The position numbers and the translations under genes were made by a program. A DNA stretch of 22,385 nt from a virus. Below the pieces are notes generated by a model. It ran no database searches. It worked only from the letters and a program-made list of their open reading frames with translations, and was not told the origin of the DNA. The DNA lies in IMG/VR virus record IMGVR_UViG_3300008627_000066, positions 1 to 22,385 of that record; one strand, given 5' to 3'. Of the stretch, positions 651 to 19,182 are shown piece after piece; position 1 is the stretch's first letter, and each line of letters opens with the position of its first letter.

Positions 651-895
651 CTGTTTATTATTATCGTGTCGTTTCTTCGTTTCACCCCTCTTAACTTCAT
701 CTCCTTTTCAAACATCCAGGCTTTCAGCTCACTCAATACCCGCTTAGGCATCTTTTGATTATCTTCTTTCAGGTCTTTCAAATCATCTTTAAACTCGTTA
801 TGTTCTATCTGGTGTTGAATGTATAACCCTATTCCAGTACAAACAACCCCGAAGCAGAAAGCTAATATACCCCACCATTTTCTTACCCATTCCAT
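647..895 (-). CDS. Small membrane protein with coiled-coil tail
   Basis: An 82-aa protein with one N-terminal hydrophobic segment at about residues 8-27 (WGILAFCFGVVCTGIGLYI), then a charged, probably helical region rich in Lys, Glu and Asp (about 31-72). The ATG at 895-893 overlaps the TAA of the upstream gene by one base (TAATG), and its own TGA overlaps the next ATG as ATGA, so it lies in a coupled chain. A short anchor plus a charged helix just after the tail genes fits a spanin-like or other lysis accessory protein, but many unrelated small phage membrane proteins look the same. Function unknown. Confidence 0.7.
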   Translation of the reverse strand: MEWVRKWWGILAFCFGVVCTGIGLYIQHQIEHNEFKDDLKDLKEDNQKMPKRVLSELKAWMFEKEMKLRGVKRRNDTIIINR

Positions 896-1131
896 TAATC
901 TCTTTTCAATAACTCTTTGTACTCACTTGTTAACTCAAACCCATTATTATTTACGATTTGCTCAATATTTGGAGTAGCTAAATCAAACCAAAACTCCTTG
1001 TATGCAAACATTGTGGTTTCTTCTCTTTGTACTTCTTTTATATCGAAGCGAATTAGCATGCCTCCTTGTGTTTTTTCAACTAATAGAGGGCTGTTATTGC
1101 TTTCTGAATTGCGAAAAATGTGTGGTTTCAT
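895..1131 (-). CDS. Unknown 78-aa protein
   Basis: A 78-aa soluble protein starting MKPHIFRNSESNNSPLLVEK. It contains GGMLIRFDIKEVQREE and a C-terminal part with FWFDLATPNIEQIVNNNGFE. There is no signal peptide, membrane segment or recognisable catalytic motif. The middle (residues about 16-50) looks like a small beta-sheet and the end like a helix. It starts 49 bases after the stop of the lectin-like tail protein and shares its last base with the start of the following membrane-protein gene. I do not recognise its function. Confidence 0.65.
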   Translation of the reverse strand: MKPHIFRNSESNNSPLLVEKTQGGMLIRFDIKEVQREETTMFAYKEFWFDLATPNIEQIVNNNGFELTSEYKELLKRD

Positions 1132-1180
1132 TTCTATTTATGTTAGTGATTTATCTTTTCTTATTTATAATCATGCTAAA

Positions 1181-1315
1181 TTAATAGCAAAGGCGACCGG
1201 CAAGATTCACATCGTCAGCCGACCAAGCGTCATTCACCTTCAGCGCAAAAACGCCAGCCACGCCACCGGCATTCGCATCCCTGCCCGCGAGAACGACCCG
1301 CCAATAATCCCTACC
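1181..1315 (-). other. Candidate variable repeat of a diversity-generating retroelement
   Basis: This is the 3' end of the lectin-like gene. The encoded tail runs from about YWRVVLAGRDANAGG to NLAGRLCY. Its layout (spaced N, D, A, G and V residues around AGVFAL, AW and GRL) matches the general form of retroelement target proteins. The coding strand is sharply poor in adenine, as expected where template adenines have been replaced. A weak 5-bp inverted repeat (tgcta/tagca, 1174-1178 and 1185-1189) straddles the stop codon. No reverse transcriptase or template copy lies in this window, so the call rests on composition and protein pattern only. Confidence 0.45.
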
Positions 1316-2866
1316 AACTTGACTATATTGATAATAATAATCGCATAAATCAGTCGTGCTGCTTGCTCCAACTGCTGAAGGAATAAATCCTGTTGCTTCT
1401 TCTATATTACTTATATATCCAGCATCTGCACCTATGTACGAAGCATCACATAAATGTTTCATATTTGTACTTACCTGATCGGCAAAATAGCTTGAGTTGT
1501 TGGTAACATAAACTGGTTGTGCTGCTGCTGCACCTGTCCAGCTTCCATCCCATGCTATACCATCCAGCATTTTCCATACGTTGCCAAAAAGGTTTTCTAT
1601 ACCACGATACGTCATGTAATCGGTAAGATAACCAGTTCCATTAATACTGTAAAGAGTGCCACTCATAACAGAATTAGTTCCATTACCGTCACTTATACTA
1701 AGTCCGGTAGGTGCTATATAACTATCGGCTGTCCATCCGCCTCCTGTTAAATTAGTTCGCCCTCCACCTATCATTGATTGAGCATTAAAATCAGCATACT
1801 CAACAAGATATAAGAGTTGTACCGCTGAATGAAGGTAGTAATCTAATTGCCGGAAACCCGCGCCGCGTTCAGCTGCCATAGTTCGGTATTCTGCACGTGT
1901 TTCGTTTACTTTAGGCCATTGCCCTGCCACGCTGCACATCTCATCATTAGCCGCGTATAAATCTGTTGGAATGCTTGCTTTTGCTGTCATCGCTCCCTCC
2001 GAATCATCGTACATTGAACCTTCAAATGCTGAATAATATCTGTAATCTACTTCAGCTCCATCTTTCCAAAAAGCAGGGTGAAGGTCAAAGCCCGGAAGGT
2101 CATATTTAGATATATACCAACTGTTAACCGTCCCGGTTAAATCATGTTTGAAATAAAATTTTGGAATCTCAACCATTACCTGCCCATCATCGCCATTAAG
2201 AACAGCCGTCCCAATTACATAAACCTCTCCGCTTACCATTATATCCCGATCAAGACTTAATGTGTTTAGATCGTCCCTTGCTGTAATCATTGCCCACGTG
2301 TCATCCGTAATGTTATGAACCATCATTCCGGCAACAACAGCGTCCGTTACGAAATCAGCTCCACTGTCTTCCAGTTTATCTCCTGTTGTACCGTCAGTTG
2401 TACCGGATGTTTTAACTGTCGTGCCTTCCTTCATGTAAGAACTATCAGCGTCAAGATAATAGTTAACCGTTCCGGCATCAGCTAATAAGCAGCGTTTCAT
2501 GTCGGATTGAATAGGGAGATAGGCATTTCCAGCGCTTTGAGCAGTTGCTATTCCTTTCAGCGAACCTAATCTTGTGTAAGTATCACCATCAGAATCCCAT
2601 GTTACTCCTTGACATAACGATAGACTCATTCCATCCATTGTAATTGCTTCAGTTGTGATTACTCCAGCTACATCTAAAGTAGTATTAGTTTCATCCCAAA
2701 GGATTTTACTTACACTCGCTATACTCCATAACCCCGTCGAATTATCATAATAAATTATAGCCCCATCAGCAGCCGTCCCGCTAAAACTCGCTTCCTGGGG
2801 GCGGTATTGAGCCGAAACGCTGAACGCTAAAAGCAATCCAGCGAATATTAGAATTAATCTTTTCAT
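1181..2866 (-). CDS. Tail-tip protein with C-type-lectin-like C-terminus
   Basis: A 561-aa protein with a signal peptide (MKRLILIFAGLLLAFSVSAQ), a beta-rich N-terminal part, a middle segment (about 150-220) of the DSGADFVTDAVVAGMMV type, and a C-terminal domain from about 235. That domain has EIPKFYFK, HPAFWKDGAEVDYRYYSAFE, GIENLFGNVWKMLDG and ends LAGRLCY. The NLFGNVWKMLDG pattern and the GRL ending are typical of the formylglycine-enzyme/C-type-lectin fold used in variable receptor-binding proteins of diversity-generating retroelements. The last 120 bases (1181-1300) are about 59% GC and only 13% A on the coding strand, against about 35% GC and 34% A in the 120 bases before. I infer a host-recognition adhesin at the tail tip. 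No conserved sulfatase-activating active site is evident, so enzymatic FGE activity is unlikely. Confidence 0.82.
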   Translation of the reverse strand: MKRLILIFAGLLLAFSVSAQYRPQEASFSGTAADGAIIYYDNSTGLWSIASVSKILWDETNTTLDVAGVITTEAITMDGMSLSLCQGVTWDSDGDTYTRLGSLKGIATAQSAGNAYLPIQSDMKRCLLADAGTVNYYLDADSSYMKEGTTVKTSGTTDGTTGDKLEDSGADFVTDAVVAGMMVHNITDDTWAMITARDDLNTLSLDRDIMVSGEVYVIGTAVLNGDDGQVMVEIPKFYFKHDLTGTVNSWYISKYDLPGFDLHPAFWKDGAEVDYRYYSAFEGSMYDDSEGAMTAKASIPTDLYAANDEMCSVAGQWPKVNETRAEYRTMAAERGAGFRQLDYYLHSAVQLLYLVEYADFNAQSMIGGGRTNLTGGGWTADSYIAPTGLSISDGNGTNSVMSGTLYSINGTGYLTDYMTYRGIENLFGNVWKMLDGIAWDGSWTGAAAAQPVYVTNNSSYFADQVSTNMKHLCDASYIGADAGYISNIEEATGFIPSAVGASSTTDLCDYYYQYSQVGRDYWRVVLAGRDANAGGVAGVFALKVNDAWSADDVNLAGRLCY

Positions 2867-15777: not shown

Positions 15778-16194
15778 TCAATGATTCTTATTTAGATGAG
15801 GGAAGGGAACATCTGGAATAGGGACATTCAGGAACTCGCATAACTCTTTCCAGCCGTCCCCATTTTCCCAACAAACTACAAGACAGTTAGGGAGTTTTGA
15901 GCATACGTTAATATGATGGGTGTATATATCCATCCACCAAGATTCTGGATACCACGACCCATACATATCCAATCGCTGTTTGTATATCCCTTGCCCCATT
16001 GTATGTTTTTTATCCCATTTTATTACACTTTGTAGCCAAGTTAATGAATCTTTACGGGTTGTAAGTATCAACTTCCCGTCCCACTTCGGAAGGAAATGTA
16101 CATAGTCCCCGACCTCCGCTTCAACCCCTAATATCTCAAGGGCTTTCTTTAGGGTAGTGGTTCCTGTTTTAGGTAGTCCTATTCCGTAAATCAT
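15778..16194 (-). CDS. Short sulfotransferase-family protein
   Basis: A 138-aa protein. The N-terminus IYGIGLPKTGTTTLKKALE is the phosphosulfate-binding loop (PKTGTTT, residues 8-14) of PAPS-dependent sulfotransferases; KLILTTRKDSLTWLQSVIKW (41-60) matches the 3'-phosphate site with Arg47 and Ser50; the end GWKELCEFLNVPIPD and FPHLNK are usual at the C-terminus of the sulfotransferase_17-like group. Most members are around 200 residues or more, so this one is compact, but both cofactor sites and the C-terminal element are present, so it is not obviously broken. It would sulfate a hydroxyl or amine of an unknown acceptor. Its ATG overlaps the PanD stop as ATGA, so the two are coupled. Confidence 0.78.
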   Translation of the reverse strand: MIYGIGLPKTGTTTLKKALEILGVEAEVGDYVHFLPKWDGKLILTTRKDSLTWLQSVIKWDKKHTMGQGIYKQRLDMYGSWYPESWWMDIYTHHINVCSKLPNCLVVCWENGDGWKELCEFLNVPIPDVPFPHLNKNH

Positions 16195-16532
16195 ACCGCT
16201 TTATTATTTTCGTCTGTGTGAATAATCATAGGAAGTGGTGACCAGCCAAATTGAGGTTCTATTAAAACAAACGCTAAAACGTGAATCTTATCCCCTTTTT
16301 TAAAGAATAAAGAAGCCCCACCGTTTAACTTTATTTCTCCTTTTTCACCAGGAATTACATAGGTCATTATTCTGGATGGGTGGTTTTTCCCATTTATATA
16401 TACTTGCTGATAGGGTGCTATCCCAGCCCGTCCCATTAAATCACGACAAATAGTAATAGACCCCTCATAATCTTTATTTGCTTCGGTTACTGTAACCTCT
16501 TGCAATTTGCCCTTTAATACGTTAATATACAT
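16191..16532 (-). CDS. panD: Aspartate 1-decarboxylase (PanD-like)
   Basis: A 113-aa protein that should convert L-aspartate to beta-alanine and CO2 using a pyruvoyl group made by self-cleavage. Starting at the ATG at 16532, numbering matches E. coli PanD: Lys9 in VLKGKL, the Gly24-Ser25 cleavage site in DYEGSITI, Arg54, Thr57 and Tyr58 in SRIMTY, and an NGGAS segment (Asn70) for the conserved Asn72. GDKIHVLAF follows. All residues required for processing and catalysis appear present. A longer start at 16577 exists but adds 15 residues absent from the family and overlaps the neighbour by 56 bases. It overlaps the PP-loop gene by 11 bases and the sulfotransferase gene by four. PanD normally serves pantothenate synthesis; use by a phage is unexpected. 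Confidence 0.88.
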   Translation of the reverse strand: MYINVLKGKLQEVTVTEANKDYEGSITICRDLMGRAGIAPYQQVYINGKNHPSRIMTYVIPGEKGEIKLNGGASLFFKKGDKIHVLAFVLIEPQFGWSPLPMIIHTDENNKAV

Positions 16533-17637
16533 TTTCGTAAACTGTTGCGAAGCCCCATAGTTTAGCTTCATATCCATATAAATTACTTGTAAAATCTAAT
16601 CCTTTAGGTATGTATTCTTTATAATCCTGGTATAGTTGTGACTGATAAAACCAGCCTTCGATATATTCTTTTCTTAACTCTGATATATTCCAACTATAAT
16701 CATGTTCCCCGTATTTGATATAAAAACAATCTACCCCGTGACTGTCAATAAAACTCCTCACCACCTCACCCCTGACACTATCCCTTTGCCCGTCCCAGCT
16801 CACATCAGGAGAGTTAAGCAGGGATACCCCTAAATATTGATACGAGAAAAAAGGCAGATACACTTCTTTGAACACCCTGCGATAATACCCCTCCCACTGG
16901 CCTTCGTCCGGGTATTGATTTAACAGTAGGTTGAGATTCTTATTTAGCGTCCTTTGTGGGTCATACTTTGGATTTGGTTTGGCTAAAAACTTAAACAACT
17001 CACCCCCGACCCCCGTTATTACATTCCACTCCTTTTCGTTTTCAATAATGTCACTCCAAAAATTCATCTGCTGGTTATAGTTCTGCCACCCGTTCAACGG
17101 CCTGTCTGATCTCCCTATGTCGTAATGATCTGCCTTTGTCCCTGTAAATACTGAGTATTGTGATTTCTCCCACCCTTGTTGTGTCATTATGTCCAGAAAC
17201 ATCGGACCTTCTGGCTGGTAACAGCGAAAGTGAACCCCGGACATATCATGCCCTTCATCCCTTAACTCCATTAATACAAGTGAGATTATACGGGAATCAA
17301 ACCCAGCGGAATGGAATACTATGTAGTTGCCCTTTCGGATAACTTTGTTAAAATATGATTTTAGAGCAGACCGGATGGCAGCTACCAGGTTTCTCATAGG
17401 GGGCTTTTTGATAGGTGTTAGCATCACCTTAGAATAAATACCCTTACTCATTACCTGTTGTGGGTGAGCAAACTCGACACCTAAAAAAGGAGTAGCATAC
17501 CAGGGAGGCACATATTCCGGGTTAAAAAAGTTAACATCAACTCCCAGGTGTTGGCCTTTGACTAACCGTATCAAGTCGTAATCGTAATTACCTAAAAATT
17601 GATATGTGCCCCTGTTAAACTGCATAAAGCTCCTCAT
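16522..17637 (-). CDS. PP-loop ATPase, asparagine-synthase-like
   Basis: A 371-aa protein with a pyrophosphate-binding loop FHSAGFDSRIISLVL (SxGxDS type, residues 110-115) as in the adenylating domain of asparagine synthases and other N-type ATP pyrophosphatases, and a later VITGVGGELFKFL segment (207-219) that resembles the G-G-x-E-L-F element of asparagine synthase. An N-terminal glutaminase with a catalytic Cys2 is absent, so ammonia or an amine rather than glutamine would be the nitrogen donor. Such enzymes adenylate a carboxylate and join it to an amine. It starts 38 bases after a tiny membrane gene and overlaps PanD by 11 bases. Substrate unknown; a link to beta-alanine is inference. 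Confidence 0.72.
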   Translation of the reverse strand: MRSFMQFNRGTYQFLGNYDYDLIRLVKGQHLGVDVNFFNPEYVPPWYATPFLGVEFAHPQQVMSKGIYSKVMLTPIKKPPMRNLVAAIRSALKSYFNKVIRKGNYIVFHSAGFDSRIISLVLMELRDEGHDMSGVHFRCYQPEGPMFLDIMTQQGWEKSQYSVFTGTKADHYDIGRSDRPLNGWQNYNQQMNFWSDIIENEKEWNVITGVGGELFKFLAKPNPKYDPQRTLNKNLNLLLNQYPDEGQWEGYYRRVFKEVYLPFFSYQYLGVSLLNSPDVSWDGQRDSVRGEVVRSFIDSHGVDCFYIKYGEHDYSWNISELRKEYIEGWFYQSQLYQDYKEYIPKGLDFTSNLYGYEAKLWGFATVYENVY

Positions 17638-17675
17638 TAATCCATTAATATTATTCCATTCTAACCGTATTGGTG

Positions 17676-17798
17676 TTATATTGTCTGTTCTCGTCTCTTA
17701 TCCTTTCTGTTTAAAATTACAAACAATACTAAATAACATCCTATCCCAAACGTGAGGATAGAACCGTAAGCGATTAAAATAGGTATAACTACGTTCAT
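17676..17798 (-). CDS. 40-aa single-span membrane peptide
   Basis: A short frame, ATG at 17798 to TAA at 17676, coding MNVVIPILIAYGSILTFGIG then CYLVLFVILN and a basic tail RKDKRREQTI. Residues 3-29 are hydrophobic, and the positive tail predicts N-out, C-in topology. Its ATG overlaps the TGA of the deacetylase gene as ATGA, the same junction used elsewhere in this operon, which supports it being real. It may anchor or assist the neighbouring surface-modification enzymes, or act on its own; function unknown. Confidence 0.6.
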   Translation of the reverse strand: MNVVIPILIAYGSILTFGIGCYLVLFVILNRKDKRREQTI

Positions 17799-18460
17799 AA
17801 ATCATAACTTTGCGGGTGCATCAACAGTTGATACCGTCCCTTGTTGTTAATCCATTTATCTAAAGTTTCAAAAGGGTCTTTATTCCATTTCCCGCCCCCG
17901 TCAGAAAGGCGATCATCCCGCTTGTCTTGCATAGCTTCAACCTCCAGCCCAAACCGTTCCATTTTCCAGGTCGGGCCTACATAGTCGGGCAACCTCCAAC
18001 AATGGAACCCAAATACATTATCATTAGCTACCCGTTTCTTTACTTGCCACGCCCCTCCATGTGAGGAGGTGCATCTGATCTTTAGCCCCATTCCCCTTAG
18101 TTCCCTTAAAGGTCTTTCAATCGCTTCCTTTATAGGTGTCCCGTTCTCATAATGGTCGCTTAAACAATCGTTATGCCACCCTATTTCATGCCCCCAACGG
18201 TCTTGTAATATTTTAAGAGCCATTACAAAGTATCTATTATTTGGTTGGAAATACGGTTTATCCGGGGGCCAGGTGTTAATAATAAAGATAGTAGATTTTA
18301 TCCCCATCTCATACTCAATCTTTGCAGCTTTCATTGCCCGGGTGAAATCCCCGTCAACATCGTGCCTCAATATTATCCCTTCGCCTGGGGTGTGGAAGTC
18401 TATAACATAGGGTTGTATAATCTCCAGAACCTTTATAAAGTTTTTCCGTGTGAATTTCAT
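17795..18460 (-). CDS. NodB-like polysaccharide deacetylase (CE4-like)
   Basis: A 221-aa protein with the carbohydrate-esterase-4 order: an Asp motif RHDVDGDF (33-38; Asp34 and Asp36), a metal-binding GHEIGWHND (His91 and His96 of the HxxxxH type), a TSSHGG segment (131-136), and a late LLMHPQ (212-217) for the catalytic His. No signal peptide, so it acts in the cytoplasm, probably on a nucleotide-linked or lipid-linked sugar rather than on the cell wall. It overlaps the glycosyltransferase gene as ATGA and the 40-aa gene the same way. Deacetylase activity is inferred from the motifs; some of these proteins have other substrates. Confidence 0.75.
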   Translation of the reverse strand: MKFTRKNFIKVLEIIQPYVIDFHTPGEGIILRHDVDGDFTRAMKAAKIEYEMGIKSTIFIINTWPPDKPYFQPNNRYFVMALKILQDRWGHEIGWHNDCLSDHYENGTPIKEAIERPLRELRGMGLKIRCTSSHGGAWQVKKRVANDNVFGFHCWRLPDYVGPTWKMERFGLEVEAMQDKRDDRLSDGGGKWNKDPFETLDKWINNKGRYQLLMHPQSYDL

Positions 18461-19182
18461 TTTAACAAGTTTTTCAATACATCAATGTCAACAGGCTTTG
18501 CCTTTTCAATAGATGACAAAAACTGGAAGTGGTTAATAGATACGTTGCTTTTGAACCCAGTTGTGAACGGCCTCCAGTTGGTATGAACCATAGTAGGCCG
18601 GATTCCGATTTTCATTAACCGATTCATTGAGGCCGTGTCCATCCCCCTATCCAGATTATAATGATACAAGGGCAGTTTGTATTTTTTTTGCAGCCGTATA
18701 ATAGCTTCAGTCTTTATTAACCGCATCACACCAACCGGGTATTTGTGATTATACAAGTCAAGGTAATATGCCTTCCCGCTTTCCTGATCCACAATATGAC
18801 AGGAATCAATACCTATCAGCTCTTTCCCCGCTTCAATGTGAGGTTTGTACTCTTTCCATATAGAAGCATCACAAAGGTCATCACTACCCATATTCATAAT
18901 GTAATCAGGTTTAAACATAGCAAGGGCAGTCTGTATGCCCGCATTAAGTTTAGCCCCTATCGGGAGGTTCTTATACTGGGTCACGGTAAAATCAAACTCA
19001 TGCCCAATATCAATTAACTCCTGTATGTCCCTATCCTCTGGAGAAACAACACATAAGTAATTCACCTCTACCCAGGCGGGTGATTCCTTTATGAACCGTT
19101 GCATAGACTTACAATGTCGCAACGTCACTTCCCACCTTCTCCACCAGGGGCAAACGATGGTAACTTTAACTTTTTTTCTCAT
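18457..19182 (-). CDS. Family 2-type (GT-A) glycosyltransferase
   Basis: A 241-aa protein starting with a Rossmann-like strand KVTIVCPWWRRWEVTLRHC, then the GAKLNAGIQTAL segment (77-88) and a metal-binding motif MNMGSDDL (96-103), the usual DxD place of GT-A fold enzymes. A region with KYPVGVMRLIKTEAI follows. No membrane segment is seen, so it is a soluble enzyme that transfers a sugar from a nucleotide-sugar donor; donor and acceptor are unknown. Its 5' end overlaps the small 76-aa gene by 17 bases and its TGA overlaps the deacetylase start. Confidence 0.8.
   Translation of the reverse strand: MRKKVKVTIVCPWWRRWEVTLRHCKSMQRFIKESPAWVEVNYLCVVSPEDRDIQELIDIGHEFDFTVTQYKNLPIGAKLNAGIQTALAMFKPDYIMNMGSDDLCDASIWKEYKPHIEAGKELIGIDSCHIVDQESGKAYYLDLYNHKYPVGVMRLIKTEAIIRLQKKYKLPLYHYNLDRGMDTASMNRLMKIGIRPTMVHTNWRPFTTGFKSNVSINHFQFLSSIEKAKPVDIDVLKNLLK

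Follow-up and report, generated by a model that had tools for sequence, protein, structure and literature searches.

A probable orphaned diversity-generating retroelement target in a phage tail protein gene

Introduction

Diversity-generating retroelements (DGRs) that act on the lectins of phage tails are well known. Surveys of these elements usually begin from the RT, so that orphan variable repeats (VRs) are missed.

The tail DGRs of crAss-like and Bacteroidota phages, such as crAssE-Sib, are arranged as target, template repeat (TR) and RT (PMC11054128). The DNA analysed here, a stretch of 22,385 nucleotides from a virus record (hereafter the window), resembles this type in having a VR at the 3′ end of a C-type-lectin tail gene, with a TaqVP-like fold. 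Its relatives likewise carry a TR between target and RT; the nearest annotated matches of their RTs are DGR-type phage RTs, with those of crAss-like phages about 50% identical. It differs in that the window has neither TR nor RT, and in that the gene following the RT in the relatives encodes an OB-like protein, g93. The likeness to TaqVP (Thermus aquaticus variable protein, 5vf4) lies in the fold of the C-terminal domain, which here belongs to a phage tail protein with an N-terminal part of its own.

Incomplete and dispersed systems have also been described. In Epsilonunovirus DGR fragments, the RT is fragmented or deleted (PMC11054128), and the present locus similarly keeps its target after RT loss. 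Here, however, the scar can be read base by base, a 5′ TR stub remains after three of the four losses (counting that of the window lineage), and VRs differ between genomes that have a stub junction in common. Distal second VRs are reported in gut prophages (PMC12629997). In Thiohalocapsa PB-PSB1, incomplete or trans-diversified DGR loci point to diversification in trans or in a variant-dependent manner (PMC10907252). As in our L002-L004 contigs, targets there lack a complete local DGR while their VRs still vary, but that system sits on a bacterial chromosome with known donor DGRs, whereas ours consists of phage fragments for which no donor was found. The window thus holds an orphaned DGR target, a known kind of system. 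What merits following are the resolved scars, the TR stubs of related loci and the VR differences that follow cassette loss.

The tail gene and its variable segment

The window is a phage genome fragment whose genes include those for the terminase, portal, capsid, tape measure and tail. The features of the target gene are as follows.

1181..2866, minus strand: target gene, an open reading frame for a 561-aa tail protein (phrog_5302, PHROG E=3.6e-81)
1187..1305, minus strand: VR, differing from the L009 TR at 19/32 template A and 6/82 non-A positions
1187..1199, minus strand: GC-rich 3′ motif CGGTCGCCTTTGC, a putative IMH counterpart placed from own-locus VR/TR alignments

A Pfam search with the 561-aa protein gave no match. 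The last 120 nt of its coding strand (1181-1300) hold 16 A and 71 G+C, against 41 A and 42 G+C in the 120 nt before them (1301-1420). Recounting returned exactly the figures and coordinates of the original prediction, and translation of the open reading frame confirmed its reading of the peptide encoded by the A-poor end, AGVFALKVNDAWSADDVNLAGRLCY. Over the whole minus strand, the mean A count of 120-nt intervals is 37.5 (s.d. 6.8); counts of 16 A or lower occur in only 0.1% of intervals, and at least 71 G+C in only 0.14%. All of the tail gene's lowest-A and highest-GC intervals fall within its 3′ segment.

The signature of adenine mutagenesis emerges from comparison with the TRs of relatives. 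Positions 1187-1300 align with the L009 TR over 114 nt without gaps, this template being a relative's and not the lineage's own. Differences are concentrated at template adenines: 19 of 32 are altered, against 6 of the remaining 82 positions (Fisher p=1.3e-8). A-directed differences also separate the window VR from the TRs of three other relatives (p ~1e-4 to 1e-5) and, at p=0.04, from the most divergent one (L015). Where relatives preserve both repeats, differences between VR and TR are almost confined to template adenines: for A and non-A positions respectively, own-locus pairs give 20/31 v 1/83, 21/30 v 4/84, 23/32 v 0/82 and 21/33 v 4/81. Judged by these alignments, the A-poor segment is a genuine DGR variable repeat, which bears out the DGR-type variable segment originally predicted here.

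The 5′ edge of the VR, at about 1305, was placed from the TR stubs of L002-L004. At the other end, the alignment stops 3 nt short of the stop codon, at the 3′ end of the target gene. By the logic of IMH (initiation of mutagenic homing) and IMH* in BPP-1, the 3′ motif CGGTCGCCTTTGC would be the IMH counterpart. At the final three template adenines, the VRs of the window, L015, L016, L019 and L020 have G, G and T, which looks like the IMH/IMH* difference of BPP-1.

The C-terminal domain of the target, about residues 220-561, is of the TaqVP type, C-type-lectin/FGE-like. An AlphaFold2 model of residues 200-561 has a pLDDT of 74 and a pTM of 0.81, with pLDDT of ~52-66 over much of the VR. Foldseek matches it to TaqVP at E=1.9e-8, far above all other matches, and VIA-align superposes 260 residues at Z 22.4 and rmsd 3.0; the value for Mtd is Z ~10. 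Profile comparison of the C-terminal domain with TaqVP agrees (E=1.4e-6). As modelled, the variable domain has a C-type-lectin fold, and the target is probably a receptor-binding tail protein. The lectin-like part of the earlier proposal is therefore supported by the fold (TaqVP Z 22.4), and its host-recognition part is probable.

Intact cassettes in related loci

Viral contigs were scanned with proteins and sequence patterns to collect relatives of the tail protein, and a scan with the L009 RT reached 80 loci. The order target-TR-RT-g93-g76 is intact in L015, L016, L018, L019, L020 and L105. L009, whose contig begins inside the TR, has TR-RT-g93-g76 and an RT of 350 aa. The structural genes around the target-TR-RT module are mostly not common to the relatives; the module therefore seems to move among unrelated phages. 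Searches of the viral collection turned up no intact sibling of either the window or the L002 group. When genome contigs were scanned for a named host, the one match was a contig from a distant rumen bacterium, which has an RT of its own. Two matches of a short VR pattern, in L011 and L012, look like chance and have no related gene.

In many unrelated DGR loci, the RT is followed by a gene for the 93-aa protein g93, a candidate DGR accessory protein.

L009:4554-4832, minus strand: g93, with homologues in L015, L016, L019, L020, L105, L021, L037, L064, L140 and others

Its model (pLDDT 87) is OB-like, with best Z scores of 7.3 to a RuvBL2 domain and 6.6 to SSB. This likeness to OB-fold nucleic-acid-binding domains is suggestive only. 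The Avd type of DGR accessory, by comparison, is a four-helix bundle.

A deletion scar at the window locus

The window locus has neither an RT near the target nor a TR that is a near-copy of the VR, both expected of a complete, active DGR. An RVT_1 search found no RT in the 22,385-nt window, and an ungapped, A-tolerant search of both strands found no near-copy of the segment elsewhere in it. The overlapping contig L001 (metagenome 3300007759), which reaches 754 bp beyond window base 1, also has no RT. It represents the same phage, with 2 mismatches in 9278 bp and an identical VR and scar junction. Nor was an RT found in L118-L121, fragments of the same species from four more metagenomes that overlap the window, or in backbone relatives. 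L118-L121 are 98.1-99.7% identical to the window, and all of them stop short of the tail gene.

In the window, g76 comes next after the target, to which a scar of 43 bp (1138-1180) joins it. In both the window and L001, this scar lies at the exact spot where relatives carry TR-RT-g93.

1150..1180, minus strand: left half of the scar, TTTAGCATGATTATAAATAAGAAAAGATAAA, the pre-TR leader of relatives (29/31 against L002 and L004)
1138..1149, minus strand: right half of the scar, the g93 stop and the three codons before it (SLT), TCACTAACATAA, by sequence and position
895..1131, minus strand: g76-type small gene, 78 aa (73% identical to L009 g76, 76% to L015 g76)

The left half matches the sequence between VR stop and TR in both L002 and L004 at 29 of 31 positions, a score equalled by 0/500 shuffles. 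At 12-13 nt, the right half is short; it is also A/T-rich, and 2-14 of 500 shuffles do as well, but its spacing to the g76 start codon is the same as in L002. The case for the scar accordingly depends on the left half and on position, the right-half shuffle test being weak. The expectation that this genome carries the retroelement was not borne out, as a deletion scar stands in place of TR-RT-g93 in both the window and L001. The original prediction had also proposed that the absence of TR and RT within 10 kb would tell against a DGR. They are absent over 21 kb to the right and 1.9 kb to the left, yet the identity of the VR survives, because it is shown by comparison with relatives.

Two contigs of another metagenome, 3300009320, share part of this region. 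L005:10001-10161 and L095:1-65 match the window's tail gene and g76 at 100% identity over 161 and 65 bp. They come from contigs of 22.9 and 75.2 kb with another phage backbone, with the matches lying at a contig end and start. Neither L005 nor L095 has an RT. On this identity, the receptor-binding module of the window may also occur in a different phage.

Repeated loss and continued change

The cassette has been lost elsewhere as well. In L002-L004, which have lost the RT, the segment is partly repeated just downstream of the target gene, as a TR stub of ~72 nt fused into g93. In L007, which has also lost its RT, a stub of ~50 nt is fused near the g93 end. L145 retains a stub of ~45 nt and an intact g93, with the RT replaced by a 195-aa open reading frame.

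L145:4591-5331: RT-loss locus, with TR stub and a 195-aa open reading frame without a Pfam match

A reading of this frame as an HNH endonuclease was dropped, as Pfam gave no match. The RT has been lost independently in at least three other lineages (L002-L004, L007 and L145), leaving 5′ TR stubs; the losses are independent because their junctions differ and because L007 groups as sister to L020, whose cassette is intact (support 97/100). By hand count, among loci reached from the target alone and with downstream sequence present, three lineages are without an RT and six have one.

Loss of the cassette did not always end change in the VR. L002 and L004 have a common stub junction and 0 mismatches in the ~900 bp before the VR, yet their VRs (114 nt) show 16 differences, of which 14 are at template adenines. 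L003 is ~97% identical to L002 and has the same stub, but its VR is of a different template type, as in L102, and bases just upstream of the VR are changed. The pattern fits a VR swap by recombination.

L003:7340-7500 and L102:6400-6568: VR-sized exchange, second template type

Since the VRs of L002 and L004 differ despite a shared junction and identical flanks, VRs can be renewed without a local cassette, whether through trans activity, exchange or a DGR lying beyond these fragments. The window lineage gives no sign of this, its two contigs carrying a single, identical VR sequence.

Origin and present state of the variable repeat

We consider it likely that the segment is a DGR-written VR of a TaqVP-like receptor-binding tail protein, whose TR-RT-g93 cassette was later deleted, leaving the VR orphaned at its locus. 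In the history we infer, the RT would have copied an A-rich TR with adenine-specific errors, and the cDNA would have replaced the 3′ end of the target gene. TR, RT and nearly all of g93 would then have been deleted in the window's lineage, joining target to g76 through the 43-bp scar. The VR, now an orphan at its locus, is most likely a fixed, already selected receptor-binding variant. This frozen state is the leading reading, with alternatives remaining; through its intact 3′ homing motif, the VR could still receive sequence if a related DGR acts in trans.

Several alternatives concern whether the VR is still being rewritten. Compatible with deletion is a mosaic population, in which intact siblings persist in the community and orphans gain VRs by recombination, or from a trans-acting RT and template RNA during co-infection. 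The 14 of 16 differences at template A between the L002 and L004 VRs favour it, as does L003, with its L002 stub, L102-type VR and altered upstream bases that fit recombination; structural variants and trans activity of a like kind occur in Thiohalocapsa DGR loci (PMC10907252). The viral collection, however, yielded no intact sibling of either group and a single VR sequence for the window lineage, and we regard such a population as possible but somewhat doubtful for this phage. Less likely still is the broader proposal that phages of this group repeatedly discard TR-RT and keep recipient-competent VRs, which are rewritten in trans by the DGRs of co-infecting or co-resident relatives. It is also rather improbable that TR and RT lie elsewhere in the phage genome and still rewrite 1187-1305, the scar being a degenerate second locus. 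Distal second VRs are indeed known in gut phages (PMC12629997), the window's homing motif is intact, and the L002/L004 differences, arising behind one stub junction, imply that an A-directed source acts after local loss. Against a remote cassette stand the identical VRs of the window and L001 and the lack of any RT in 22.4 kb plus 754 bp, or in the overlapping L118-L121.

Two further explanations would remove the deletion or the retroelement altogether. Repeats such as VR and TR can break assemblies, and an assembler might have jumped from the VR region to g76 with the cassette in fact present. But the scar lies outside the VR/TR repeat, removes all from the TR start to the g93 end, is identical in two contigs and has counterparts with different junctions in other lineages, so an artefact is very improbable. 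That the segment is an ordinary GC-rich lectin C-terminus, depleted of A by codon usage and with no retroelement history, is scarcely credible. A low-A segment is weak evidence by itself, but the A-specific divergence from TRs (p=1.3e-8 with the closest TR and ~1e-4 to 1e-5 with three more), the TaqVP fold and the adjoining scar of a DGR cassette all speak against it.

On our preferred reading of an orphaned VR, the locus is an example of a hypervariable receptor-binding segment that can be identified although no RT accompanies it. It adds base-level evidence that phages lose DGRs repeatedly yet keep the target, with the VRs of one group differing despite a shared deletion. This raises a testable question: once the RT is lost, does a phage VR stay frozen, or do others rewrite it in trans? 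If trans rewriting proves true, diversification would be a shared service exploited by genomes without a cassette.

Other features of the window

Between the terminase and portal genes, at 15778-19182 on the minus strand, lie four non-structural genes. By eye they resemble sulfotransferase, polysaccharide deacetylase and glycosyltransferase types, but the three that were tested had no Pfam match. At 609-650, a short tandem duplication, AGGAATAATAGGTATTTCAT in plus-strand reading, lies at and just upstream of the start codon of a 165-aa gene.
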